This document shows, one piece after another, positions 9,001-59,867 of a DNA stretch of 64,000 nt. Every line of letters begins with the position of its first letter. The first letter of the stretch is position 1. Made by a program: the position numbers and the translations under genes. The notes beneath the pieces are model-generated. The model did not search any database. It saw only the letters and a list, made by a program, of their open reading frames with translations, and was not told the origin of the DNA. Source of the stretch: Glandiceps talaboti (Eukaryota > Hemichordata > Enteropneusta > Spengelidae); assembly GCF_964340395.1 (NCBI RefSeq), contig NC_135558.1, forward strand, positions 17,018,271-17,082,270, written 5' to 3'.

Positions 9001-12000
9001 ACAGTATACTTTTAACAAAATCATTCAAAAACATAAACTTTGATGTTTTTCATAATTTGCAGTGTTGATGCTTCTGAAGATGATGGATCTCTTGGACGAT
9101 TTATAAATGATGACCATCATAACCCCAACTGCAAAGCAAAAAAAGTTCTTTTCAACTGCCAGCCTCACATATGTTTCTTTGCTCTTCGAAATATCGAAAA
9201 AGGTGGAGAAATAACATACAATTATGATGGAGATAACTTATATTGGCGTGAACAGGTAAAAGACACATTTATGAAATTTTTATCCCAGGTTTCCATTCCA
9301 TTTCATTTATCATAATTATTGTTTGTGTGTGCAGAAATGACAGTTCATGTTGATTCAACAAGTGACAGGCATATTATGAATTAATACTATGTTGTATTTG
9401 TGAGGCCATAACTGTTCATTATCAGACAACAAAGTGTCAGATTATTGTAAACAATTATATAGCAGGTGTCACAAAGATATTCATTTTGTGTTGAAAAAAA
9501 TAGAATAAACAAATAATAATACTTTTGATTGTATGTAATTATGATAGCAATATTTAATGTCCCAAATTTATACATGGGTTTTAGAGACATTCAGCAAGCA
9601 GAACTTGTGCAGTGTTTGACCTCTATTGTTGTCCTAAATAAGTCTCTAGGTGTAAATATTCATATGCATAGTAGGACATGTGTATGATGAGGGGAGACAT
9701 TACATGTAAACACAGAAAGTGAAAAGTAAATGCATTAAAAAAATTGCTATGTTTTGATCAACATAAATGGTTATTGAATGTTGATTTATGTTGCTTAGGT
9801 CATATATGTTATACTGATACTGGCAAAATAAGACGTGTCAATATTAGGCAGCATCTAGTTCTTTCTATACAGTCTTATGTATAACACTTGGTACTTCATT
9901 GCTTTTTTCAGGCTTCCTATCATTGCAGAAAATGTAACCCATTTGAAGGTGATCAGGTTAGTTATAGAAATAGAGCGTTTTGACTCAAAATCTGTACCAC
10001 TCTCTATCCTTTCAATTTTTGATGAACCTGAGCATGGAAAGCTAAAAATGATTGCTGTAAGCCTGAACATTTAATTTTTTGTGCAAAATTTCAGTTAACT
10101 GTGTCATACATTGTAAGCATGTAAATTACATGTATACATAACTATGCATACATGTAGATGAATTGTTACACCAACTCAAATAAAAGAATTATTTCTTGTC
10201 AGTGGATCTTCCCCAATGATAAAATGCACATTTTTGTAAATATTATTATTATCATCATTATTATTAGTGGTATCATTATAATTTGATATTTTCAAATGAA
10301 GCTGGTCATTGCTACTTTGTGCAAACAATGACTGAGTGTACATTTCTCTAAGAATGATTTTTTATCTCCCAAGCTTTGATTGGAATTATTTGGATTGTGA
10401 CTGTCATTATCTTTTCCTGTGTTCACTTCTAACCAAAACCATATATTCCTACTGGCACACTGATCATATGAATCTATTGAGGAATACTTGATATAATCAT
10501 TGTACTGATGTTATCTCAACAGATTGACAATCAAGACTCGGCACCATCAGCCATGTCATCACAACGCCAACAGGATTTGAACACAGCTCAAGCAGTCAAG
10601 TCATTTAAACAGAACACAGACTCAGTTCTAACAGCAATGTCATCTCAACTGAGAAAGAATTCAGACTCTGTTCAAACAGCTGAATCATCTCAACAGAATA
10701 GCAATCCAGACTCATCTACAACAGCCATGCCATACCAACAGAATTTGAACACAGCTCATCAACAGACAGCCATGTCATCTCAACAGGACTCAAACACAGC
10801 CCAAGCAGCCATCCCATCTCAACAGAATTTTAACACAGTTCCAACAACCATGTCATCTCAACAGAATTTGAACACAGCTCCAACAACCATGTCATCTCAA
10901 CAGAATTTGGACACTGTTCCAACAACCATGTCATCTCAACAGAATTTGGACACTGTTCCAACAACCATGTCATCTCAACAGAATTTGAACACTGTTCCAA
11001 CAACCATGTCATCTCAACAGAATTTGAACATGGTTCCAACAGCCATATCATCTCAACAGAATTTGAACACTGTTCCAACAGCTATATCATCTGAACAGAA
11101 TTTGGACACTGTTCCAACAGCTATATCATCTCAACAGAATTTGGACACTATTCCAACAGCCATGTCATCTCAACAGAATTTGAACACTGTTCCAACAGCC
11201 ATATCATCTCAACAGAATTTGAACACTGTAGACTCAACAGTCACATCATCTCAACAGAGTCAAAATACAGACTTTGCTCAAGCAGCCATGCCATCTCAAC
11301 AGAATTTGAATACAGACTCGGCTCACACAGCCATAACATCTCAACAGAGTTTGAACACAGTTCCAACAACCTTGTCATCTCAACAGAACTTGAACACAGT
11401 TCCAACAACCATGTCATACCAACAGATTATGAACACTGCTGAGACAGTCATGCCATCTCATCAGAAAAAGACACCGGACTCAATTTTTACAGCTGTATCA
11501 TCTCAACAGAACAAAAATCCAGACTTATCAACAATAGCCATGTCATACAAACAAAATTTGAACATAACTCAGACAGTCATGTCATCTCAACAGGAATCGA
11601 ACATAGCTCAATCAGCCACGTCATGTCAGCAGAATTTGAACACTGTTCCAGCAACCATCCCATCTAAACAGAATTTAAATACAGACTCAGCTCAAACGTC
11701 CATATCATCTCAAGAGAGGTTGAACTCAGACTCTGCTCTAACGCCCATATCATCTCAACAGAATTGGAACATACCTGCAACAACCAATATATTGTCATCT
11801 CAACAGAATTTGATTTTGAACAGAGGCGTAGCGCAAACAGCCATACCATCTCAACAGAATTCTACATTGAACACAGATAGAACTGCAACAGTGATGTCAT
11901 CTCAACAGAATTTGAACACAGCTCCAACAACCATGTCATCTCAACAGAATTTGGACACTGTTCCAACAACCATGTCATCTCAACAGAATTTGGACACTGT

Positions 12001-15000
12001 TCCAACAACCATGTCATCTCAACAGAATTTGAACACTGTTCCAACAGCTATATCATCTCAACAGAATTTGAACACTGTTCCAACAGCCATATCATCTCAA
12101 CAGAATTTGGACACTGTTCCAACAGCTATATCATCTCAACAGAATTTGGACACTGTTCCAACAGCCATGTCATCTCAACAGAATTTGAACACTATTCCAA
12201 CAGCCATATCATCTCAACAGAATTTGAACACTGTAGACTCAACAGTCACATCATCTCAACAGAGTCAAAATACAGACTTTGCTCAAGCAGCCATGCCATC
12301 TCAACAGAATTTGAATACAGACTCAGCTCACACAGCCATAACATCTCAACAGAGTTTGAACACAGTTCCAACAACCTTGTCATCTCAACAGAACTTGAAC
12401 ACAGTTCCAACAACCATGTCATACCAACAGATTATGAACACTGCTGAGACAGTCATGCCATCTCAACAGAAAAAGACACCGGACTCAATTTTTACAGCTG
12501 TATCATCTCAACAGAACAAAAATCCAGACTTATCAACAATAGCCATGTCATACAAACAAAATTTGAACATAACTCAGACAGTCATGTCATCTCAACAGGA
12601 ATCAAACATAGCTCAATCAGCCACGTCATGTCAGCAGAATTTGAACACTGTTCCAGCAACCATCCCATCTAAACAGAATTTAAATACAGACTCAGCTCAA
12701 ACGTCCATATCATCTCAAGAGAGGTTGAACTCAGACTCTGCTCTAACTCCCATATCATCTCAACAGAATTGGAACATACCTGCAACAACCAATATATTGT
12801 CATCTCAACAGAATTTGATCTTGAACAGAGGCGTAGCGCAAACAGCCATACCATCTCAACAGAATTCTACATTGAACACAGACAGAACTGCAACAGTGAT
12901 GTCTTATCAACAGAAATTGAACACAGATCAGACTTTGTCCTCAAAACAGAATTCAATCTTGAACAGAGACTCGGCTCCTCCAACAGCCATGTTTTCTGAA
13001 CAGAATTTGAACACAGCTGCAACAGCCATGTCATATCAACAGAAGTTGAAGAGAGTTCTAACAGCCATTTCCTCTCAACAGACTGAGAATCCAAACTCAA
13101 CTATTACAGCAATGTCGTCTCCACAGAACAAGAATCCAGACTCGAATGCCATCTCATCTAAAAAAAACAAGAATCCAGACTCGACTCAAACAGCCATATC
13201 ATCTCAACAGAATTTGAACACAGTCTCAGCAGTAACAGCCAAGTCATCTCAACAGAGTGAGAATCCAGACTCTGCTTTATGTCAACATAAGAATCTCAGC
13301 TTGACCCAGTCAGGAATTCCACTGGGGTGGAATAGGACTCCTTTCTCAACATTGCCAGCCAAACACTCTCTGACATTCAGTAGATCTCAGAATGTTGCCA
13401 TTGTTTCCCCCAGTAAGAAGCGTCATCGTAGTGAGGTATGTATGCTAGAACTAATTTGCTATATTGTGTTCATCATATTGATTTGTTCAAAACAGATATT
13501 TGGTCATGCTAACAGAGCAAAGTATATTTCTCAATACCCATTCTGACAGAATGAATACACACCTTACTTTTTCTTGAAGTAATAAGCCTGTAAGCACTGA
13601 TTAATTAATATGTTAACCTTATCAGTTGTCAAAATACTAGATTATAATAATTGTTGATACAAAAAATGAGCAATTAAGTCACAATTTTGTTACATGCAAC
13701 CAACTTTTTTTTTTAAAGCCAAAGGTATTCGATGTGGATACTGCATTGGATTCCAGTGATGAGGATGTTGTCATGGATTCTAGTAATGAGGATGTTGTCA
13801 TGGATTCTTGTAATGAGGATTCTGAAAATCAAAGCGATCAGGTAAGTTGGGATCTACATTATAGCTACAGTGCAAATCAGGACAGTGTAGATTTTCAGTG
13901 TTCAACACAGACAGATTTCTTGACATAAAGGTGTAACAACATTATTGGTGTGTGAAATGGGGTGATAGCAGGCAAGTCAATTTCATATGGGTACATGTTG
14001 GCACAGTATTTTGATGTAATTAGTCAGACATTACATGTTAATGTTTCTTTGATTGAAAAGGTAATCAAAATTTGATATTCATTCCAGAAGATGAAAACAA
14101 TTCTGTTTTTTAAAAATCAGAGGGGTTGTAGATATACTTGAAAGTTTTGCCATGAAATAATCATTATGATTGGATATCAAATTGATTCAATTAGATACCA
14201 GTATTTTATCACCGCACCTTAATACCTTTTCTAATGTATCTGTCAGTCAAGAAAACTGTCCGATTTGAACACTGAAATTCCATGCTGTTTTGACTTGCAC
14301 TCGCTGTATTAGACTAAAGTCCAATTGAACAAGGCCATGGATAACTGTGATGTTACATGTACCCAAGATGACCTAAACTGATAGCCATTTTGTTTCCATT
14401 GCACGTGATCAGTGATTGAAAAATCAGAAAAGATGTAAATTCTTGACAAAGCATCATAATTGTTTCAGGTTTCCCAAATCATACATCTGTTGTATGTGAT
14501 ACAATTTTTATCGTATGAGTAGTTTATTAAAAGCTTTTTAATGCACCAGAGAGGACATCAAGTGAACAGTAGTGACAGATTCGCCATATGATAAGTGTAG
14601 TGGAGGTATTTCTGTCAATTTATGTATGCCCTGACATTCACCAACTTGCAAAAACATAAAACAATCCATTACTGTAAGCTCCCATGTTTCTTATTTTGCA
14701 TAGGGACCATACTCTTTCAATTCTTTGAAGAATACAGAAGACAGTGAAGCTGCAGAGTCCAGTTGTTCTGAGTATGTTCCCAGTGCTGACCCTGAAAGTG
14801 ACAGTGATGATGATTCTGACTGTGATCACCTTAGTGTAGAATTGAATACAAGTGAGTGTCAAAATAGTGATACCAGAAGTCAACAAATGGACAAACCAAG
14901 ACCTAAGCCTGGTACTGATCATGACTTTAATCACAGTAGTGAAGAATTGAATGTGACTGAGGGCCAAAATAATGATGGCAGTTGCCAACCAGTGGACAAA

Positions 15001-35623: not shown

Positions 35624-37175
35624 GTAGATAGCAACCATGAAGTCAAAGATGCCATGATAATTGGTAAATTACTTGTCCTTGGGTTTGATCCAAAGCCATG
35701 TGATGATGACCCAGATGCAGCCAAGAAAAGAATACGACACAAGTATGCATATGATGACAGGGAAGTTTGTAAAGAAGCATTTTTATTTTTACACAACACT
35801 ATTTTATGGAAACACTGGTAAACATCCAAAGCATGCCTTAACATACGAACAAGTTATACACTATACTGAATTTATACTTCGGTATGCTGAAGACCATGGA
35901 CTTCCACAGCCAGCAGCCCCAAGAGGTACAGATAACAAACCACCAGTGCATTTACCAGCATCTGAAAATTATAAAACAATGCATGGCCTGTACTGTACAG
36001 TTTGTAATGCCCAGCTGAGACCATTTGGATATGACAGCTTTCGACTTGTATGGCATCAGATTTATCCTCATGTGCAATTCGCAAATCCAAAATCTGATTT
36101 TTGTCAGAGATGAGGGGACTTTCGAGAAAAAGTGTTCCATGCACGCACTGAAGAAGAAAAGTTGAATGCATGCTGTGATCGACCTGACAACACACATCAA
36201 TGAAGCTAAATCAGGCAGAGCATACTATAGAGAATATATCAATGCAGCTAAAGAAGAACTGATAGATTGTGATTTACCAATTGAGTATATATGATTTGCC
36301 AATTGAACCATGTAGTGATGATTTCATTTGATTTCATTACACTTTTGATTTTGCCCAAAATATCTTTCTCCCTCATAGAGTTAGGCAGGTTCGGCCAATG
36401 TTTTTTAAAACACCATTAAAAGTGCAGTTGTTTGGCATATGTAGTGAAGGTGTGCCACGACAAGTTAATTATCTAATCAGTGAACAGGAAACCATAGGTG
36501 AAAATGGCACAAAAAGTCATGGTCCTAACACTGTTGTATCCTGTCTTCACCATCACTTTGAACAGTACAGCTTTGGTGAACAAAGCTGCTCTATGCATGC
36601 TGATAACTGCAGTGGTCAGAACGAAAATAAGACTGTCATTGCATACTTAGCCTGGAGAGTAATGACAGGACTTCACAAATCAACTCAATTCAATTTCATG
36701 ATGAGTGGACACACCGGATGCACTGCTGATGGTTTCTTTGGTTATTTAAAACAGAAATATAGAAGGTCCAATATTGATACTGTACATGAGCTAGCATCCA
36801 GTCAATCTGTCTTGCAGTCCAAACATTGCCCAATTGTTTAAGAACAGTACTACTGGTCATCCACACTATGAGTGGCGGGATTGGATTACATACCTGCATC
36901 GCTTCTTCAAACCTGTTCCTGGGGTAAGAAAATATCACCATTTCTGCTTTACATCTGATCACCCAGGTAGCGTGTTTGTGCGTGAATCACTCACCTCAAC
37001 GGAGAAGGAGTTCAAAGTACTTCGACAGCCAGATACTCGGTTCTGCAGACAGGAACTACCACCAGTGATCCAACCAGCTGGAATGACACGGGGACGTCAA
37101 ACTTACCTGTACAAGACCATCAGAGAGCATGTTGCGCCAATAAATAGAGACATAGTGTGCCCCAGACCAACATAA
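35624..37175 (+). pseudogene. broken copy of a multi-copy orphan family (DUF7869-like)
   Basis: Several open segments in different frames resemble one protein family that I recall under the label DUF7869, common as multi-copy genes in invertebrates. Recognisable pieces are HGLPQPAAPRG and a Cys-rich YCTVCNAQLRPFGYDSF segment (35790-36113), then HADNCSGQNENK with WRVMTG and MSGHTGCTADGFFG (36398-36841), and KYHHFCFTSDHPGSVFVRES (36834-37175). The reading frame is interrupted about four times, so the copy is probably dead. The conserved Asp/Asn-rich HADNC motif hints at an RNase H-like fold, but that is inference. No clear terminal repeats were found. It could be a decayed transposable element or a processed gene copy. 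Confidence 0.65.
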
Positions 37176-39122: not shown

Positions 39123-39545
39123 CTAATCGATGTCAACAAGCTCCGTTTCAAATATCAGTGTGGCACCCCCTGGTATTTTTGGTGGCGACCCTCTTTCTCC
39201 ATACCCTTTATCGGATGGGATTGTTAAAGTTCTCTTCTCGCCAATACACATTCCCTGGATGCCAAGATCCCAGCCTTTAATGACCTGACCTTGACCTAGA
39301 GTAAATGTGAAGGGTCTTTTCCTTGAATAACTCGAATCGAATTCCGAACCATCTTCAAGTGATCCCCTGTAGTGTATTGAAAGCGAATCACCGTCTTCTG
39401 CTGCAAAATCACATGTCTTTGGAATGAATTTCCTTTCCACTTTGATGCCTTCGATTTCAAAGCTTTTTTCACCACTTTTTCCCTCAGAAAATATGACGAA
39501 AAGGGAGATCATCAACGTCACAACTTTTGCAATGGAGGCCGCCAT
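39123..39545 (-). CDS. FKBP2: FKBP-type peptidyl-prolyl isomerase, FKBP2-like, ER lumen
   Basis: This is a single uninterrupted frame. An upstream in-frame ATG at 39563 would add six residues. I prefer the second ATG at 39545 because it lies in CAAGATGGCGGC, an exact TISU/YY1-type initiation element. The protein has about 140 residues. It begins with a hydrophobic signal peptide (AKVVTLMISLFVIF), followed by one FKBP domain with the expected pocket residues: HYRG, EFDSS, GQVIKGWD, GYGERG and IPGGATLIFE. Two cysteines (PKTCDF and GMCIGE) match the conserved disulfide of FKBP2/FKBP13. It probably catalyses proline isomerisation of secretory proteins. It ends ELVDID, without the C-terminal ER-retention-like tail of mammalian FKBP2. 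The lack of introns is odd beside its intron-rich neighbours. Retroposition or intron loss are both possible, but the frame is intact and the TISU argues for expression. Confidence 0.9.
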   Translation of the reverse strand: MAASIAKVVTLMISLFVIFSEGKSGEKSFEIEGIKVERKFIPKTCDFAAEDGDSLSIHYRGSLEDGSEFDSSYSRKRPFTFTLGQGQVIKGWDLGIQGMCIGEKRTLTIPSDKGYGERGSPPKIPGGATLIFETELVDID

Positions 39546-39547
39546 CT
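39536..39547 (-). promoter_or_regulatory. TISU / YY1-type element spanning the FKBP2 start codon
   Basis: Read on the minus strand, CAAGATGGCGGC matches the TISU consensus SAASATGGCGGC at all twelve positions, with its ATG in frame with the FKBP2-like protein. TISU elements direct initiation from very short 5' UTRs and also bind YY1. This predicts a transcription start only some 5-30 nt upstream, making the first ATG at 39563 marginal or absent from the mRNA. Confidence 0.75.
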
Positions 39548-39842
39548 TGCTGATGTATCCCATAAGCCACTGAGCGCAGCAAACATACGAGGTCTGAACA
39601 ACGCCCTCAACGATTCAACCCATCAACGATTATGCAATATTGTTACACCAGTTGTTACACATGTAGTTCTGTTTTATTTATCCAGAATTCAAAATGTCTG
39701 CTAAATACCAAGTTAACTTTATGTTGTAGGGAAAAATAAACAAGATAAATAAACAAGATTGCCAATTGGATGGTGAAACCTTAAAAGTTTCTATTATTTC
39801 AAAATGACATGAAACAAGCTTCCGTTTCATATGGAATAGTTT

Positions 39843-40018
39843 TTAATGATTTGAACATAAATTTTGTCGAAGAGGTGCATCTTTGGCTGATATTTCATAA
39901 ATAGGTGGTATTGACCCAATCTGATTGATATCCAATGTAGTGTACATTCGTGATTTCTTCTTGGCTGTTACTTTTACTGTTGTTTGTTCTTTTGTGAGTG
40001 CTCCTACATACATCTGAC
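39843..40018 (-). other. possible terminal coding exon, unidentified
   Basis: On the minus strand an acceptor-like tattgtgtcag precedes an open frame beginning MYVGALTKEQTTVKVTAKKK and ending LRQNLCSNH before a TAA. A tttatt (minus AATAAA) lies downstream near 39675. The composition is protein-like, but I recognise no family. Upstream exons would have to lie between here and RPL28, where I find none. Confidence 0.2.
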
Positions 40019-40029
40019 ACAATACCATA

Positions 40030-40900
40030 CTTTATTTTAAACAGTGTTATATTGTAAAAACGGATTCTGGTTGGCTACTCCTAAATACGACTCGAAATTG
40101 GGTTCATAAGAAAACCAATCATATTGTCAGATTTATGTAACGGGCACTAATAAAAGAACAAATGACAGAAAACATAACACTTAACAGCCCCCCATCGGCT
40201 GCTCTATCAGTGTACCTTACAAAATAGTATAGACCCCCTAGGATGTCAATATAAATCATACATTGAGAGCTCAGCAACTACTAAGATTCACCTATCCAGC
40301 TAGCCTAGAGACTGGTCTTGGTATTCATCTACACCCAGGCTTTTGCCCTTGGGAAGGTTTTGAATTTGATATTAGCACAAACAGCCCTGATAAATCTAAG
40401 TGAATTTTACTATGTAAAGCTATGATGTAATAATGGTCCCAACACGACCTCTTGTAAGGGGACCAGGGACATATTAGATTTTAGCACAGCTGCTTCTGCA
40501 TGTGGTAATTCCAAATGTCTGAATTGCTTTCACGGGCAAAAGCATTGGAATTGTGACGAGAGCCGCTTGAGATACTAACACAAAGACTTATCTCTTGGCT
40601 GTGTTTCAGCTACAGAATCTTATTTGCATGGAATCAGACTACAAGATATATTGTGCCGTTCCACCCTCCTCTCTCTGAGAGGACTTGACCAATGTGTGAA
40701 GGCACCCCATCTTGGCATACCTTACAGACTATGCTGGTACCTGTACAAGGACTATGAAAGTAAATGTACATACACGCCTATATTATACATCAACCTTGTA
40801 TATTCAGACCTTCATTAAACTTTAATCTCATACACATTCAATCACTTACATTCATTTAGCCAAACATCAACATACTGTTCCACTAAAACCGGTGTGTGGT
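40030..40900. other. intergenic stretch with a dispersed repeat fragment
   Basis: No gene is recognised. Around 40660-40740 a segment containing tggcataccttacagactatgctgg recurs in diverged form near 46650 and 50970, so it belongs to an old dispersed repeat. A related phrase (ccttacaaaatagtatagac) is at about 40216. Confidence 0.4.
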
Positions 40901-40903
40901 GTT

Positions 40904-40909
40904 TTTATT
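40904..40909 (-). terminator. polyadenylation signal of RPL28
   Basis: AATAAA on the minus strand, about 67 nt past the RPL28 stop codon, a spacing typical of ribosomal protein mRNAs. Confidence 0.7.
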
Positions 40910-40975
40910 TCACAAGACTGACAAAGTTTGAATGTACACAGTCAAATATGAATCTTTTCATCTGATCTTAATAAT

Positions 40976-43943
40976 CTATTCACGCTTGGCGCGTGGCTTC
41001 CTCTTCTTGACTGCTGCCACAGGTTTCTGGCTTTTAAGAACAGCACTGGCACGTCTCAAGGCAGCCTGAAATTACAATAATACAGCAGTGCTATCAACAA
41101 CAATACTGATGTATTCACAGATTACAATTTCCATATGAATTCAGACAGGTATACATATTTTGTTCACAATTTAGAACATGGATGGTAAAACTGCCATAGC
41201 TTTCTCATTCATACAAAAGCTAAATTTGGTTGCAACTCGGCCCCCAGCCCCACCCCAGGAACACTATGATTTGGGTACATTTTACCAACTAACAGCCTGA
41301 AAGAACTGCAGAAGTCTTAGTTTTTGAATAAACCAGTCTGGTCAAATTATCCCTGGTGATTGGCTGCAAGACAGGAATGATGCTGGGCTAGGTAAGCATA
41401 TAATCAATGATCAAGAACCTAACACAGACACTATATATAACTGCAACTGATATTGCAATATGTTGATATAAGCCATCGACATGCATGACGTAATAACAGT
41501 TACAGTAGGGTGGCATCCCCCTACATGAGCACAATTAAACCAATGTCCATTCAGTAGCTTATTTCAGCATGTTACAACAATATATGCATCTGTATCTGTA
41601 TCTGTACCTGTATCTGTACCGTGTCTTGTAGATGTACAAGCACCAATGCTGGTTGTCACGTACGTACATACAATAGTTTTAATTTAAAAAAAAAAATATT
41701 TGTCTCAGTTGAAAGCTCGGTGTCCACTCTCCTATGTAGTTAATTAATTTGACTCAAGTTTATATGTTGTTCATTTTTCTCACACAAAACACAAACATGA
41801 ATCCTCACCTTCTTGAGATCCTTACGGTATCTACCTTTAGAGATTTCATTTCTGATTGAGGTGAGAGTACGTCTCCAATCTCTTTTCAGTGTTACTCTAC
41901 GTTCCCATTTCACTGGCTTATTCTTAGCTGTAGAAACAATCAATAAATGTACATGTTAGTTGTCACAAAACAGATAACACTTGTATTACATCTCAATAAA
42001 TCCACATGAAATTACTTTCCTCTTTTCCCTTCTCCTATGAAGCATTCGCTCCAGAAAATAACAGATCGAGTAGCGAGAAATTTACATATTAAGTGAATAT
42101 ATTGCTATGGCCTACTATGATTGTACCAGCAACTCAATAAAGATCTAAGCTACCGAAGTGGGGCCAAGTGTTTCGTGAGCTCGAAGGAGCAGTGTCATAA
42201 ACATTTGATTTGGGGGCATGTACAATGTAGGGAGAATCTTGCTATACTGATAACACCACCTATAATGATATCGAAGTGGTTGGTTGGTTGGTTCATATAT
42301 CTTCCCAGCATTTTTCTTCTGCTTGGCTTTAGTTATCAAGCAGGATTTGAACCACATTAAATTACGTTTTTGATTACCCAGTCATCAACAAGAGATACTG
42401 ATATGATGTAACGATAGCTATGAGACTGACTAATCTGGTGAAAAGATAAGCTGATAAAAACTTACCATTCTGTTTTTTTGTGACAAGAACAACACCTTTG
42501 CCATCTTCAGCAGGCTCAATACCAACAGTCTGAAATCAAACAAAGTCTTGTTTACAATTTTATCTTAACTAGAGAGTACAAAAACATCTCCTCCTTGCAG
42601 AGAAACTGAAGTGATTCAATTGTCACTTTCAAAATCCTTAACTTTGCAAGATTTACTGAGAAACATCTATTGTATTAATTTTATACTTCGATGTTATTCC
42701 ACTATGTTTTTCTTCATTCAGCTACAAAAAAATATGAGTGACCTAGTGACTTGTAGAGACAAAACCTTTAGGTCACGAGTATTTTTCTGGCTGAATGAAG
42801 AAAAATACTGGAGAATAGCATAATTATACCAGTGCCAGTAATATCAAAGAAAAGGCGGCGAAAGTAATGGTAATTTTGAACGTTTTGACTTTCGAACACA
42901 GCAGAACCAATGACGTAGACACACGTTGTTGTGATATACATGTAGATGTGTGTTGACATGACATCGACCGACCAGGATATAAATTCCATATATTTTTGTT
43001 CAACTTGGCTTGTGCATGGTATAAAAGTACTTACCTTTTTGTGGATTAGACCATTATACCGGAATGCATTCTTACTCTTCAAGTTGTTGGGTTCCTGTAG
43101 ATACAAATACAATATGAAATCTTAGTATCAGTACATGTATAACACCTCAAACAGACAGTTTTCTTTAAATTCAGTGTATATGGTGTACCTTATGAGTGAA
43201 AAATTCATAAATGTTGTGTTCTTGTAATCACTCATCAAACCAAGTGTAGTAAGCGCTTACTGTAAGACTGTAAGATATGTTATATTGTTGTTCAGCCCTG
43301 TCAGGCTTCTCAAGTGATAGTTGATAGCATGGCACTACACATGGCATCGTATCTTACAGACCACAGGCGAATGACGACATTTTCTGTACATTGTGTATCT
43401 CTGATTCTGGATGAACAATATCTCCATGACAATATACTGAATGCTGATGTCATGTGTAAGTATCCACTATCGTCCAATCAGAGTTTCTAGTTTACACTGA
43501 TACCAGTAACTCATGACAGGCACAGGTGTATTTTCTGAGTTGTGTTAGCTTGTGGTTATTTCCTGGGTGAAAGCATGGTGTACACAGATATTTTCAAAAT
43601 GCTATCAAACTGCAGATATATTTTGAAGCAATGTGCAAGTCACAAAACAGTGTGTTACAATGCAAGCCAAAATGCTCAACCCGCTGTGTGCTGGGTAAAC
43701 CTACTTAGTCTAGTGAAGTTCACACATGGCAATACATAAAACGTGTTTTTTTTCCCATGTGGCACATTGGTTGCTCAAAATCTGTACACTGCAGCTCTTT
43801 TTCGGTTCTTTTGCTACTTTAATTATATTTCTGCAATAATTTCCTGTACTTACTCTTGTGAAAACTGTTCTGTTACCCTTGAGAAGGAAGCTGGAGTTAT
43901 CTCTCATGATGAGCCATTGAACATCTGGCGAACACGACACCAT
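40976..43943 (-). CDS. RPL28: 60S ribosomal protein L28 (eL28)
   Basis: Coding exons on the minus strand: 43943-43854, 43094-43035, 42529-42466, 41927-41809 and 41065-40976. All junctions are GT-AG and phase-consistent, giving 140 residues. Diagnostic segments are DVQWLIMRDNSSFLLK, EPNNLKSKNAFRYNGLIHKK, TVGIEPAEDGKGVVLVTKK, and the basic tail RRASAVLKSQKPV...KKRKPRAKRE. These align along the whole of human RPL28 (137 residues). An acceptor at 43967 shows that exon 2 begins in the 5' UTR. Exon 1 is proposed at about 44974-44996. A foldback MITE begins about ten bases past the donor of the EPNN exon. The protein is a structural component of the large ribosomal subunit. Confidence 0.95.
42683..43024 (-). 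mobile_element. ~330-bp foldback MITE, copy A (RPL28 intron)
   Basis: Part of this copy forms a foldback. The ttttcttcattcagc near 42707 pairs with ggctgaatgaagaaaaata near 42790, with tgtgacct/aggtcac-like pieces between. A unique arm continues to cttggcttgtgcatgg at 43005-43020. Copies B and C carry the same sequence in the opposite orientation. Confidence 0.75.
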
Positions 43944-43966
43944 GGTTGCTGATTTTTAGTGACTTC

Positions 43967-44973
43967 CTAGAAAAAAAACACACAAACAATTAAGGTGGTT
44001 AGACCCTAAAACAAGCATTACCAGGTACTATCAAAATGCATGGGCAATATACTTCTTTTCTCTTCTTAGTACATTTGGTCAATGCCAGGGACAGCTTTTG
44101 GTGCAGTCAATTTATCAGTTTCAATGACATGGTCGGAGTGACTGCCAAATTGTCTATACCCTATCTATTTCATATTTACTTGGATCAAACAGCTATATAT
44201 GAAGAAAGCACTTAATGAGATGAAGTGGCAGCCTATTCCTCTTTTAAAATCAACTCAACCGGGATACAATCACCAACATCAACTTGGTAGATAGAATGTG
44301 AACATCACTTCAACGAGCGGGGTAAGTATGTGTAGTACGGTGTACTATTAATTTAGAAGCAGACAGATTGACTACATTACTATTTGTAAAACTATGTGTC
44401 TGACGGAGATTTTGCGCTAATGGGAAGAGAAGATAGCTAAGCTTGCCATATTCGCTGTGTATCTAACCCCATTTTTTTTCTTCAATTAACAAAATGAAGA
44501 CCCGGTACCCAAGAAGAGTAATATTAGGGTTAGGGATTTTTGGGAGTATTCCACACGGATAAATTCTTCCAGACTTCATATCTAACGCAAGATTGTAATG
44601 AGAACTAATCGTATAAAAGTCTGGGCCCAGTACACATCCCTGTAAAATGTATGTGGATTTTTCGATGGATCAAGAGTTTCCCAAAACTGCGTTCCTGGAC
44701 AACCAACACTGTTGTACACTACACTATTACTACAATACATAACATAGTTTACATCGATATCGCTTGTCAATGGCCATGCTGCAATCGTCGCTCGCTACCA
44801 TAAACAGTTATTCTTCGCTAAATATCAAGCAAAACAGAACCATACAAAGCCATATCATAAAAGCATAAGATTGAAGACATGGTCCATTGACTATTTTGGG
44901 GACATTAGTTTCAATTAGTGGGTAATTTCATCGAAAGATTGGCACTGCTAGTGAACACGAGGTTTCTTCTCAC
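43967..44973 (-). other. RPL28 intron 1 (proposed)
   Basis: The span runs between the proposed exon 1 donor (GTGAGA) and the acceptor ttttctag before 43966. No snoRNA with convincing C/D or H/ACA boxes was found. Confidence 0.5.
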
Positions 44974-44996
44974 CTTCCACGGGCCAAAGAGGAAGA
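44974..44996 (-). promoter_or_regulatory. RPL28 non-coding exon 1 with 5'TOP-like tract
   Basis: On the minus strand cttcctctttggcccgtggaag ends at a GTGAGA donor. A pyrimidine run of about ten bases starting with C is the hallmark of the terminal oligopyrimidine (TOP) start of ribosomal protein mRNAs. The exact start site is inferred. Confidence 0.6.
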
Positions 44997-44999
44997 CCA

Positions 45000-46776
45000 G
45001 AGGCGGATCACATTGATGGGGTCTTACGCGCCATGTATGATGGAACGAAATAATGATTAATTTCGATATACTCTGGGTGGACATAGTTTAGACATAAGTA
45101 TGGTATAACTACAATTCTAATAATCACCTCAAAAATGGTAATAAGAGACAACATGGTAGTTACACTGTGGCTTATTTTCACTGTGCGCATTGTTATAGAA
45201 CTAAGTGAAAAGTTACATCAAGGAATTATGGGTAGTTTTCAAAATGGCTGCCCACTAGTTGGCGTTTCTTTCTCAACCATACGCATTTCCTGTATAATTT
45301 CAAGCTTTTCCAGGAATATATCGAGGACTACAGATTCGTGAAATAGTGAAATCAAGTCTGCGTTATAGAATCTCGTGGGGCCTTTTTTATTTTGTTCTTC
45401 CATAACTGTGATATACGTCCCTACAAAGAAATACAAATTAGCAACTTGGCAGCTGTTTCATTTGGCCACAAAACCACGAGTACGCGTGTAGAACCTCCAG
45501 TCACCCAATACCAACGTGTATTGTACCTATTTACTTATACTGTCACTCTGAATAGCTTGACATCAGAAGAGGTAAGTTGCTAAAGACTTCAAGAATCTTG
45601 GTGATTGAACAATTTCCAATGAAATATTCTGATTTATTAGATTAAAAAAAAATTTGTATTTATCTGTGTCTAACGTTCGAACTTACACCTTACAGATAAA
45701 TGATGATAATTGATATAGGGAGAGCATATATTTGTGAAGTCTTTTGAAATTAAAAAATACCAGCACTTAATTTTGAATAAACTTACAAATGTATGCAACT
45801 TGTAAAACAAAATATTGTACATTGTAAAGCCAAAATAATTATCGCTTCAAATATGTTATCTGGTTTAATATTCATGTGTAAGTTACAGAAAGATAATGTT
45901 AGAACAGAACATTTTCAGTTCTTTATTTGTAGACCAAAAGTTGTTACAAAACAGATTTAAAACGCAAATGTACCACCAGCAGGCATCATATAGTAGTAAT
46001 TAATGTAGTATTACATCATCACAAAACTAATAGTGCAAGATGCGTCGCCAAGTTAAATTTTTGATGCTCCAGCAGAAAAATATGCTCTGGGAGTCAGCAT
46101 TTGAACTCATAACTTTTTGTTGGATAAGATACTCGGTACTTAAGGATTATACAAGCAATCAAATCTCAGTAAAATTATACCAAACATTCATTTACTCAAG
46201 TGATAGCAATGTCCTCTCTTAGTTGGTAACAAATATTGCAACTAAAGCATACCCAAGAGTCAAGACCATCCCTAATTACATGTAGCTCTAAATCTAAATC
46301 TAGCTACCTAGCTTGATAACAATTTGTTGCCTACTGTATTGTCAGTTCATTGTTCTTCTTTTAAATATGCTTTTGTGTTTGCACAAATTGGACAATATGT
46401 TGTTGATTGTTACAAGAATTAATAGGACAGTAAAATATAATTGCTTTGGAATGGTAAGTGTAGAAAAGAATGTAAGATTTTGATCCATCTACTAAAACCA
46501 TGGCTGTCGAATTACTGTCTTTGAAACTGTTAAAATAAATATTGTTTAATATTTTATCAGATGTGTATTGGTTTCTAACTTGATAACAAGTCTGTCATGT
46601 CTTTCCAATGCCCCTCAATTGCTTGGTCCCGGTGCGTTAAGGCGTTCCGTTATGGCGTACCTTACAAACTATGCATGTCCCTAACTTGAAAACACGTCGG
46701 CCAGATGTCTGCTGATGGTTCACATTTTTTTATCCTTTTTTTCTGAAGATAAAATGTTTGGTTTATTTTCTTACAG
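45000..46776. promoter_or_regulatory. divergent intergenic region between RPL28 and the triple-MLLE gene
   Basis: RPL28 leaves on the minus strand near 45.0 kb. A plus-strand donor at 45572 (gaagag/GTAAGT) is the best candidate for the end of a 5' UTR exon of the MLLE gene, joining the acceptor at 46776. The two start sites may share a promoter of a few hundred bases. An old dispersed repeat fragment lies near 46620-46690. Confidence 0.45.
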
Positions 46777-46845
46777 AGAGAAGTGTCTTTTTTTGTGGGG
46801 AAGGCCAAATTTGTGTGTGATACATACATAGCTTGAGTACCAACA

Positions 46846-48532
46846 ATGTCTCATTTACCAACTACAAGGGAAGTGTTAGGAGAACATTTGTACAGTGTCA
46901 TCCAGCCATTACAGCCGGACTATGCTGACAAACTTACAGGGATGCTACTGGAGCTTGGTAACGAGGAAGTCGTGCAGTTGTTGCAGTATTCAGACTTGTT
47001 GAGGAAGAGAATAGATACTGCAATGGAAGTGTTGCAGCAAGAGGAGTCCCAAAACAAAGACATGTTGGGTGAAAAGTTGTATGCTAGAGTGGAAGAAATT
47101 GAACCAGTGTTTTGTTCTAAAATCACAGGTAAATGTGCTACATGTAGCCCGGGAACTTTGGCAAAGTGTTTCTGAGAGGGAGATGATGCAATGGAAGAAA
47201 TAAAACCGTGGTGAAAATGATAAACCAGAAGAATGAACTTTTTCAGTTTCACTTCTACTCAACTCAAATCTGACATCAAAAAGTGCATTTGGTAGGGTTG
47301 GTAAGTTGGTTGGTAAAATCAGTTCCCCCCAATCATTTTCAGGCCAGGTTTCCACCACAGTAATATGTTACTAAATATGGAATTATTTACAAATTTAACA
47401 GGTTTCCCACATTCTGTAATTGGGTTCCTTATCTATCTAATATTGTAGGAGTGAAGCAACTAATCAAACAAAGTATGACAATATATTGAAATCAATTTTA
47501 TGATATGAATTATGATGACAATGATATCAACTCTTACAGGAATGTTACTTGAAATGGACAGCCATGCTATTCATCACCTACTGTTATCAACTGAAGCTTT
47601 GCATGGTGCTATCCATAAAGCAAAGCTAGCTCTCTCACATGAACACAGTGGGTAGGTATCGTGTACAACATTATGATATCATGAAACTAGATACCAAGTA
47701 AAGGACTTCAGTTATATTATATCATATCATATTACAGCTAAAAAAAGTAAAGGCTAATAGCCTATGAACTGATCAATGTCGAATTGTCAAAAACAAGCTA
47801 TTAATCACCATATCATACATTTAGTAACAATGTGTCTGTGTGAATTAGTTCATGGTTCGAGTTTTCATCACAAAGTCCCAGTTTTTGCAGAGTTCTAGAT
47901 AGTAATTACTTGTTAATGTTCAGAATGATAATAATGATACTTTGTCATGTAAGCTGAGAATGTGACAATTGTGAACTCTGAGTATAATGGAGTATATCTA
48001 ATGACATCTCTAGAATAACATTTAGAATTTAAAGAAATGAAGTTCAGTGTACACAGTTATGAGTAGCTCTTTCATGTACACAATCAAGGGCTCTAATTGT
48101 TTATGAGTAACGGAATCTAGATGTTTCTTGAGGGGAGGGGCATCATTCTATCTGCCAGGATGACTGGATGATAGAACAATCAAGTTTTGTAATAACTTAC
48201 AAGTAATGAAATTTAAATGTTTCTGGAGGGAAGGGGCATCATTTTGTCTACCAAAATGACTGCATGATAGAACTTTTGATTCAAATTGTTTTGGGTTTCA
48301 TTACAGAGTATCGGATAGTGACTACCACCATGGAGGTGATAGAGAGAAGCTTGGTGAATTACTATATAATATCATTGCAGAGGAGTATCCACAGCATTCA
48401 GCTAAGATTACAGGGATGTTGTTAGAACTAAATCAATCTGATCTTGTAGAATTACTCAACAATAATGATATGCTGCAGAGCAAGGTCAAGGTCGCAGTTG
48501 ATGTCATTGAGAAAGAATGCAATGGAAGATAA
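46846..48532 (+). CDS. small protein of three tandem MLLE (PABC) domains
   Basis: Exons: 46846-47128, 47540-47651 and 48307-48532, with consistent phases and 206 residues. The exon begins at the acceptor at 46776, and an in-frame TGA lies four codons before the ATG, so nothing is fused upstream of this start. MLLE1 (about 10-67) has LGEHLYSVIQ and KLTGMLLEL. MLLE2 (about 73-131) has LGEKLYARVE and SKITGMLLEM. MLLE3 (about 146-204) has LGELLYNIIA and AKITGMLLEL. These helical domains, known from poly(A)-binding protein and the ligase UBR5, bind PAM2 peptides of translation and deadenylation factors. No RRM, HECT or other domain is present. The Tyr in LGExLY and the LYxRV pattern of MLLE2 look more UBR5-like than PABPC1-like. 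The likely role is a multivalent PAM2-binding adaptor or competitor (inference). An intron splits MLLE2 inside KIT/GMLLE. Confidence 0.88.
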
Positions 48533-49610
48533 TCAGGACTGTGTAAATTGAAGGACAAAGTAAGAAAATAGGAGCCAAGAAATTACAAGACGTGGTACGA
48601 AAAATCTGATTTGATTGATATAATTATACAAGTGTTTTCAGTGATTTTTATTTCAACCTTCCGCAAAGCGACACACAATTTTTGTTGTTGACATTAGAGA
48701 AGTGAATGAGTAGCTCATACCGATTAAGTACCATATTGAGCAGTAGAAACTTGATGAAAAGACACAACAATATACCTTCACAATGAATTACACCCTCTAG
48801 TGTTGACAGAGTTATGATGCAAAAAGGTGAATAGAACTTTCAAGTTAATCATGCCCTCTCTGGTGAAATAGAGAAATGATGTAAATGGCGAAGTCAGTTG
48901 ACCTTTCAGGTAAAGCATGCCCTCTAATGGTGAAAAAAGTAGTGATGTAGATGCATGAAGACAGAGAAGAGTTTCTGATGATCATTTTAATTGCTGATGA
49001 AGAAGAGCAGTGATACAATGTGGATGACATACACGCATCAACAGACCTCTTGATATGCTTTTGAAAGAAAGATGAACAATAGACAGTACAATGGCAAAAA
49101 GTCTGAATGTCACTATTATGGCATATAGGAGATACCACATTCATATGATTTGTATTTACTACTGAAAAATGATAATTAAAATATTGATGAAATACTTTTG
49201 GAAAACAAATTTGAATATTATGCAAATTCCTAATCAATACTATAGTTTGTGTTGATTTTTGTGTAAATATGTCAAATCTTACGAAGTTTACGTTGTATCT
49301 AGGAAAACTTCATTCTAGTGAGTGGCATAGTAAGCATAGGAGATGAAGTGAGAGCATGCCAAAGATTTGACTGACATTTGAAGAACAAAGTTAGAATGTG
49401 CATGATAATTTTGAGTTTAATTATACTGCGGGTCAATTTTTAAAGGAAAGGCCCAACAATTCAATGACATTTTTTTTATATATATAAAAAGCAAAAAGGA
49501 GTACATGACAAAACAAAGTACAAACAAATCACAAGAATAATATAAACAACCAGAAATACCTACATGTCCCATTTATCAGTGTGTTTACCAAGTGTATACC
49601 TTCTTTTTTT
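48533..49610 (+). other. probable 3' UTR / flank of the triple-MLLE gene
   Basis: No further exon is seen. Candidate polyadenylation signals are ATTAAA near 49175 and AATAAA at 50170-50175. If the latter is used, the 3' UTR would contain the (ACAT)n microsatellite at 49.6-50.0 kb. Confidence 0.4.
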
Positions 49611-49620
49611 TGCTATCCAC

Positions 49621-49827
49621 AGCACACATACACATATCACACACATACACACATACAGATCCAGACATACACGCATACATGTGGTACATACATGTATACA
49701 TACATACAGTACATACATACATGCTTGCATGCATGCATACATACATACATACATACATATACATACATACATATACATACATGCATACATACATACATAC
49801 ATACAGTACATACATACACACATACAT

Positions 49828-49858
<31 letters not shown>

Positions 49859-49990
49859 TACATACATACACACACACATACATACATACATACACACACA
49901 CATACATACATACATACACACACACATACATACATACATACATACATGTACATACATACATACATACATACATACATACACAAACACACC
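49621..49990. repeat. (ACAT)n/(CA)n microsatellite
   Basis: An imperfect tetranucleotide tract with (CA)n interruptions and a tgcatgcat core. Open frames over 100 codons on both strands are repeat artefacts. Confidence 0.9.
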
Positions 49991-50429
49991 AAACAAGATA
50001 TTAACAAAGTGAGATTTTAAAAGATATCTTTATTTGCAAATTATGACCAACATAAACATTTTTAAAGCTGGTGCTTTTATTTTACAAATTGATTTTATTT
50101 GGTCATAGAGTTATATTTTTTATAGAGTTATAATCATTGTACATATTTTGTACAATTTTATTGTGAAGTAATAAAGATACCATGCCACTTTATCTGTTTC
50201 ATTGTCTGTGTAATCAAATATTATGTAATAACTGTTAGATCCTTAAAGGCCAATGTTTCAGTGCCAGGTTCTTGCATGAATATTATCTTATGATTCATAT
50301 ATGTTATGGAATCTTTCTCGTAGGTAATATAACTTTTTTTTTTCACATTGCAAATAGGAAGTGCTTTAGTTTGTGTGTTGGTGCAATACTACTTCTCTCC
50401 AGTGGTGAGCAATCTGTAGTATTGTATGT

Positions 50430-50762
50430 ATGGTATTCCATGCACAAGCCATTTAGAACAAAAAATATGGAATGTATACTCTGGTCATTGTACATCACGA
50501 CAGTATGTCTATCTCACAACAATGCATATCTATGTCACTGGTTCTAATGTCTTCGAAATGAGTCAAAACATTCAAAATTACCATTATTTTCCCTAATTTT
50601 TCTTTGATATTACTGGTGCAGGTATAATTATGTTATTCTCAAACATATCTCTTCATTCAACCAGAAAATACTTGTGACCTAAGGGTTTGTCACTACTTAG
50701 GGCACTTGTATTTTCCTTGGCTGAACAAAGAAAAATATTGGGGAATAACATCGAAGTGTAGA
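50430..50762 (+). mobile_element. ~330-bp foldback MITE, copy B
   Basis: It starts ccatgcacaagcc and ends gaaaaatattggggaataacatcgaag, colinear with copy C and inverted relative to copies A and D. Confidence 0.75.
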
Positions 50763-51187
50763 AACACAGTGAGAAAAAAATCACTTTGTACAGTAACAGC
50801 TACTGCTAAATAAGCAAGCAACAATGGCATTTATATTCAAAATGATGTTTCACTATGGTTCCTAGACTGTCGAGCCCTGCCGTAAGATACATTAACTCCG
50901 TCATTGAGTCCTTGGCCTCTCTTTACAAGTGTGGGGTGGGCTGATGTGTGAGGAAACCATGACATGGCATATCTTCACGGCTATGCTGGTCATGGTTCAA
51001 ATTAATATTTAAATACATACGAACAATTTACATTTTCTGAAAATGGATAAACCCTATTTAGATGTAATTACAGAAAGGCAAGTTCTAACATGATTACTAG
51101 TGCACTGTTGGGTCATCACGAGAGTCAACCTGGTTCTTGATACATATATTAAAAGTCGACATAATGTAATAATATAATCTAAATATA

Positions 51188-51513
51188 TTATACCATGCAC
51201 AAGCCAAGTTGAACAACAAATATGGAATATATACTCTGGTCGTTTTACATTATGACAGCATGCCTATGTCACTGGTTCTGCTAAGTTCGAAATATGAGTC
51301 AAAACGTTCAACGTTTCCATTACTTTCCCTAATTAATCTATGCTATTACTGATACTGGTATAATTATGTTATTCTCTAACATTTTTCTTCATTCAGCTGG
51401 AAAATACTTGTGACCTATGGGTTGTCACTACTCATCTAGCAACTCGTAGTGACAAAGCCCCTTAGGTCACTCATATTTTCTTCGGCTGAATGAAGAAAAA
51501 TATTGGGAAATGA
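51188..51513 (+). mobile_element. ~330-bp foldback MITE, copy C (ODR4 3' end)
   Basis: It starts ccatgcacaagcc and ends about 12 bp from the ODR4 stop codon at 51526, so it probably supplies most of the ODR4 3' UTR. Confidence 0.75.
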
Positions 51514-51525
51514 TATCTACATATC

Positions 51526-59867
<8,342 letters not shown>

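Follow-up and report, generated by a model that had tools for sequence, protein, structure and literature searches.

LOC144441161 of the acorn worm Glandiceps talaboti belongs to a conserved animal family of MLLE-only proteins

Based on profile searches, domain phylogeny and the inspection of peptide-pocket residues, the gene LOC144441161 of the acorn worm Glandiceps talaboti (Hemichordata, Enteropneusta) was found to encode a protein that consists of three MLLE domains and belongs to none of the groups PABPC, UBR5 and Rrm4. MLLE-only proteins with three or four domains are a widespread animal family rather than an oddity of one genome; the family is real and conserved and, as far as the open-licence literature was searched, undescribed. 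Judging from sequence features, the protein may serve as an adaptor that takes up several short linear motifs and carries no RNA-binding part, a reading to which we assign a probability of about 0.58 and which is supported by the three MLLE domains, the lack of any other credible domain, the retained contact residues of the peptide pocket, the conserved exchange in domain 2, the predicted helical domains with one disordered linker and the positional orthology of domains 1 and 2.

Gene structure and genomic context

The window, that is, the whole stretch of 64,000 nucleotides that was analysed, contains LOC144441161 in three coding exons (Table 1). When joined in silico, these remain in frame across GT-AG borders and yield 206 amino acids followed by a stop codon, and the uncharacterised NCBI protein LOC144441161 (P0001) shows 100% identity to this spliced product. 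Upstream, an acceptor-like CTTACAG (46771-46777) precedes the probable 5' untranslated part of exon 1 and marks a putative splice at 46777.

Table 1. Features of LOC144441161 in the window
Feature	Positions	Strand	Remarks
Probable 5' UTR part of exon 1	46778..46845	+	Direct sequence reading; holds an in-frame TGA
Coding exon 1	46846..47128	+	Encodes residues 1-94 and begins Gly95; covers MLLE domain 1 (class A) and the N-terminal half of domain 2
Intron 1	47129..47539	+	411 bases, GT-AG, phase 1; splits the domain 2 signature (KIT-G/MLLE)
Coding exon 2	47540..47651	+	C-terminal half of MLLE domain 2 (class B); the Ala606/Lys609 exchange corresponds to A118 and K121
Intron 2	47652..48306	+	655 bases, GT-AG; within the linker of domains 2 and 3
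Coding exon 3	48307..48532	+	Linker, MLLE domain 3 (class C), stop TAA at 48530-48532

The stop-to-stop frame of exon 1 starts at 46837, and a TGA at 46834-46836 lies in frame 12 bases 5' of the ATG. The preliminary description had taken this stop to exclude an upstream RRM part; the stop is real, but by itself it cannot exclude splicing from exons further upstream. A Pfam scan of the three forward frames of 39617-46848 (7.2 kb) therefore bears on the question, and it gave no family at E ≤1, that is, neither RRM nor HECT. The same type of read-through scan recovers the MLLE exons of LOC144441161 and thus works for exons of such size. Furthermore, the start and the length of the protein are matched in two other acorn worms (MSSLPTT and MSDLPTT; 205 residues; 58-63% identity). 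Because of the empty scan and the matching start and length, an upstream RRM or HECT part, and hence a transcript that joins exon 1 to exons encoding one, is unlikely.

The next feature upstream of the gene is an open frame for an FKBP-type peptidyl-prolyl isomerase on the minus strand (39126-39614; PF00254, 124.8 bits), and exons of an ODR4-like gene lie downstream, also on the minus strand (49201-58802; PF14778, at most 103 bits, in three frames). Elsewhere in the window, a 1021-residue open frame on the plus strand (10481-13543) consists mostly of repeats of about 39 bases and has no Pfam match above the cut-off, and a DUF7869 open frame (36332-36838, plus strand, 54.5 bits) might, at a guess, be part of a mobile element.

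Domain content and comparison with known MLLE proteins

With a cut-off of 27 bits, the Pfam MLLE model (PF00658) matches the translations of exon 1 (101 bits, two stretches), exon 2 (29.3 bits) and exon 3 (70 bits) and the whole protein in three stretches at 192.8 bits (E 8.2e-58), which bears out the stand-alone protein of three MLLE domains proposed in the preliminary description and answers its suggestion of a search with the MLLE/PABC profile; chance is excluded as the source of these matches. The signature [K][IL]TGMLLE is present in all three domains; the earlier claim of a KITGMLLE-type octamer throughout holds to the letter for domains 2 and 3, and domain 1 reads KLTGMLLE. Pfam reports no credible domain beside MLLE, neither HECT nor RRM: the plant PABC variant PF23182, which overlaps MLLE, reaches 35.5 bits with no single stretch passing alone, and HTH_9 stays under its cut-off. 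The structure is predicted to comprise confident helical domains and one disordered linker (residues 132-141). A Foldseek search with this model returned nothing at E 0.001 or better, and its top matches were MLLE chains (0.009); the alignment to 1i2t shows 50% identity and reflects the MLLE domain that the protein has in common with UBR5/HYD. VIA-align placed no MLLE chain over domain 1 among the matches listed, but since one domain can fill that list, its silence on domain 1 is uninformative, and Pfam matches domain 1, together with the start of domain 2, at the 101 bits given above.

Comparison with the known architectures separates LOC144441161 from each of them. Cytoplasmic PABPs such as PABPC1 carry RRMs and one MLLE domain, whereas LOC144441161 has three MLLE domains and no RRM. 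UBR5/HYD is a HECT E3 ligase, and neither HECT nor any other UBR5 part is found in the three-MLLE protein or in 39617-46848. The mRNA transporter Rrm4 of Ustilago maydis likewise has three MLLE domains, but they are preceded by N-terminal RRMs, which LOC144441161 lacks. The contrast that had been drawn with PABPC, UBR5 and the fungal Rrm4 agrees with the consulted sections of PMC9249222 (2022), in which only UBR5 and Rrm4-type proteins are described with MLLE domains beyond PABPC1 and Rrm4 is presented as the first protein with multiple MLLE domains as a platform. According to the same sections, Ser and Arg replace the pocket glycine in Rrm4 MLLE1 and MLLE2, which bind neither PAM2 nor PAM2L, whereas all three LOC144441161 domains keep this glycine. 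Rrm4 MLLE3, a seven-helix form, keeps the glycine and binds PAM2L but not PAM2, as stated in the parts consulted of PMC12852828 and PMC9249222.

The NCBI PABP model TIGR01628 matches the protein at E 6.2e-44, although at the C-terminal end of the model only, and this match is what could make LOC144441161 appear to be a truncated or wrongly predicted part of a larger gene of the PABPC or UBR5 type, or a copy in decay. The score of 151.1 bits is far below the cut-off of 497.1, however, and its three stretches all fall on the MLLE end, the best one on model positions 538-595 only. The empty upstream frames and the shared start and length in other acorn worms also oppose such an origin, as does the placement of the domains outside the PABPC/UBR5 clade (see below). 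A PABPC/UBR5 fragment was rejected on the controlled upstream scan and the sub-threshold TIGR01628 score, and the reading as a whole is very improbable.

No description of an animal MLLE-only protein was recognised in the open-licence literature among the matches listed, and no papers on the LOC numbers of six family members were found there. The consulted portions of PMC3287031, PMC12898128 and PMC4466420 do not mention an animal protein of this kind.

Extent of the family

A homology search with the LOC144441161 protein gave 1374 proteins at E ≤1e-3, of which the best 120 were examined; together with the best 120 of 248 from a Lingula query and the best 120 of 159 from a lungfish query, a pooled set of 287 different proteins was obtained. 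Among the best 120 of the 1374, three MLLE matches were counted in 68 proteins, four in 51 and five in one, in which one domain is split. When 43 family members were scanned singly (Pfam, E ≤0.001), MLLE was found in all 43, the PABC variant model in 22 and a weak HTH in one. The orthologue search in related phyla that had been suggested thus recovered MLLE-only relatives from anthozoans to fish. Among the matches listed, the deuterostome invertebrates are represented by three acorn worms, sea urchins, sea stars, a brittle star, crinoids, a sea cucumber and amphioxus, the vertebrates by sharks, rays, a chimaera, coelacanth, lungfish, bichir, sturgeon, gar, bowfin and many teleosts, and other animals by the brachiopod Lingula, the annelid Owenia, the snail Littorina and anthozoans. 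Among the named sources in the best 120 of each of the three queries, tetrapods, insects and nematodes do not occur. In the strongest test for tetrapods, the lungfish query, coelacanth comes next at 58% identity and cartilaginous fish follow; an absence of the family from tetrapods is suggested for the named sources in the matches listed.

Domain phylogeny and array classes

The domain tree comprises 97 domains and 60 columns and is unrooted, with 28 open forks. In this tree, one group (96/82) unites domain 1 of Ambulacraria, Lingula and Owenia with the second domain of vertebrates and amphioxus, and two sea-urchin third domains also fall inside it. Another group (98/94) unites domain 2 with the third domain of vertebrates and amphioxus and includes the extra first domain of amphioxus. 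Domains 1 and 2, as read from the tree, are therefore each positionally conserved across bilaterians. Third domains require seven changes on the same tree with its 28 open forks, and neither they nor the fourth domains of vertebrates gather into a supported group there. The PABPC and UBR5 domains form a separate clade (99/98), which consists of five rows only, three of them from one crinoid protein. A lineage-specific copy of PABPC was rejected as the origin of LOC144441161 on the placement of its domains outside this five-row clade.

The classes were named A, B and C, with N for the first domain of vertebrates, and their profiles were trained on 23 of the 287 proteins, so that the domain order is partly circular for those 23. 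By class-profile scoring, the A/B/C/N kind accounts for 245 of the 287 proteins, and 241 of the 245 show the order N-A-B-C in full or in an ordered section: NAB in 170, ABC in 29 (at least eight of which are shark or ray isoforms or have incomplete first domains), NABC in 15, AB in 15, NA in nine, and NBC, BC and B in one each. LOC144441161, itself in the training set, scores A, B and C with margins of 23.5, 38.2 and 27.9 bits. The NAB arrays (170/287, mainly teleost) are devoid of class C, while other bony fish, bichir and sturgeon among them, keep four domains. Cnidarian-like arrays account for 39 of the 287, mostly with four domains that mostly score as C; the cnidarian domains group together on the tree, and their class C scoring may be by default. 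Four amphioxus proteins (P0030, P0031, P0035 and P0038) show a BABC array, the extra first domain of which groups with class B (99/76), unlike the vertebrate N domain, which suggests that the N-terminal additions in amphioxus and in vertebrates were independent.

In a tree of 23 proteins with their A, B and C domains concatenated, four groups were recovered, namely vertebrates (100/100), hemichordates (99/94), amphioxus (100/100) and Lingula with Owenia (89/88); the echinoderms are not one group, and hemichordates and vertebrates are weakly joined (74/88). On the whole, this topology fits a vertical descent of the A-B-C family from the bilaterian ancestor or earlier.

Three further proteins are MLLE-only tandems like LOC144441161, with three domains in P0117 (the crinoid Anneissia), five in P0285 (Octopus sinensis) and three in P0065, but their domains score as PABPC-type, unlike those of LOC144441161. 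The PABPC tail was thus probably amplified separately in these arrays; P0117 falls within the PABPC clade (99/98) but belongs to the training set of that class, and the tree excluded P0285 and P0065.

PAM2-pocket residues

The positions of contact residues were taken from the PABPC1-eRF3 structures as given in the consulted text of PMC2854688. All three Glandiceps domains keep Gly563, Glu564, Lys580, Thr582, Gly583, Met584, Leu585, Leu586, Glu587 and Ala610, and position 567 is Tyr in each; judged by these residues, none of the three departs from the canonical phenylalanine pocket. Gly563 corresponds to G12, G75 and G148 of the protein. Two PABPC1 contacts are changed in the Glandiceps domains, His617 to Glu in all three and Gln560 to an acidic residue. 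In complete arrays of the family, Gly563 is kept in 211 of 218 A domains, 196 of 218 B domains, 46 of 48 C domains and all 185 N domains, leaving 22 B and seven A domains without it; these losses and the two changed contacts speak against a pocket that is plainly like that of PABPC.

In class B, the counts of which are dominated by the NAB arrays (170, mainly teleost), position 606, a Lys in PABPC1, carries Ala in 216 of 218 domains, and at position 609, a Glu in PABPC1, there is Lys or Arg in 214 of 218. Of the 48 arrays that bear class C, 47 have Ala606 and 45 have Lys/Arg609 in their B domain. Class N shows Ala or Gly at 606 and Lys or Arg at 609 in all 185 domains. Position 606 is mostly Lys in class C and in cnidarian-like domains, and mostly Gln, Lys or Arg in class A. 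Class B domains of fish have for the most part exchanged Lys580, another point against the adaptor reading: Asp stands there in 154 of 218 B domains, but in only two of the 48 C-bearing arrays. At the level of the alignment, domain 2 (class B) is marked by a conserved, domain-specific and long-maintained leucine-pocket exchange, Ala606 with Lys/Arg609. LOC144441161 displays the features of the family, namely the ordered A-B-C array, this class B exchange and no other credible domain, as far as its sequence can be read.

Proposed function and alternatives

The most likely role of LOC144441161 is that of a multivalent counterpart to the PABPC MLLE, lacking the part that binds RNA. Each of its three domains would take up one PAM2-type peptide, the phenylalanine of which would sit between helices 2 and 3, and the protein could in this way bridge up to three PAM2 proteins. 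Alternatively, it could divert PAM2 proteins from the single MLLE domains of PABPC and UBR5. Domain 2, with its reshaped leucine pocket, probably prefers another peptide. We infer, besides peptide binding and bridging or competition, a cytoplasmic location and an effect on deadenylation or translation. Binding of PAIP, TOB, PAN3 and GW182, and through it an influence on deadenylation or translation, is plausible because the pocket is conserved; since Rrm4 MLLE3 has the glycine and yet binds PAM2L rather than PAM2, the pocket glycine is no proof of PAM2 binding. Self-binding through an internal PAM2 motif was rejected, as the strict pattern occurs in none of the 287 family proteins and a loose pattern in two (P0065 and P0139).

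A simpler action is conceivable, in which three interchangeable domains act as a sponge that lowers free PAM2 protein, with neither bridging nor a division of labour. The lack of an RNA-binding part, the short linkers and the three intact phenylalanine pockets would suit it, but the three domains share just 19, 24 and 19 of 57 positions in pairwise comparison, and domains 1 and 2 each side with the domains at the corresponding positions in other phyla, which would be needless for equal sponge domains; we regard this action as improbable.

On the other hand, the PAM2-like motifs that the protein gathers could be unconnected with the poly(A) machinery; it would then act as a platform elsewhere, on endosomes or in ubiquitin pathways for instance, with PAIP, TOB, PAN3 and GW182 not its main ligands. 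The preference of Rrm4 MLLE3 for PAM2L points this way, as do the differing partners of the human PABPC1 and UBR5 MLLE domains reported in the consulted part of PMC12852828, the altered leucine pockets of class B and N domains, and the position of the family domains outside the PABPC/UBR5 clade. However, the canonical phenylalanine pocket in three of three Glandiceps domains differs from the state of the two Rrm4 domains without glycine (PMC9249222, sections consulted), and the present analysis gave no pointer to membranes or ubiquitin, so that this platform appears rather unlikely, though less so than the sponge.

For the adaptor reading, a wider role, less likely than not, can be put forward tentatively: an ancient, unnamed animal family of soluble multi-MLLE hubs might read several PAM2-like motifs simultaneously and so decide which PAM2 regulators reach poly(A)-bound PABPC. 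MLLE-PAM2 contacts control the access of deadenylases, the release factor, microRNA effectors and ubiquitin ligases to mRNA, according to the consulted portions of PMC2854688 and PMC12852828. In such a network, a conserved protein that combines three or four MLLE pockets with the lack of an RNA-binding part would be well placed to regulate or to bridge. The class-specific pocket changes lead to precise predictions on peptide specificity, and because teleosts and sea urchins have MLLE-only proteins, the family is accessible in standard laboratory animals. If the proposal is true, a loss of the hub family among tetrapods would imply that a whole layer of control has escaped studies of human and mouse. 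LOC144441161 and its relatives might control messenger RNA regulators in a way that has so far been overlooked.
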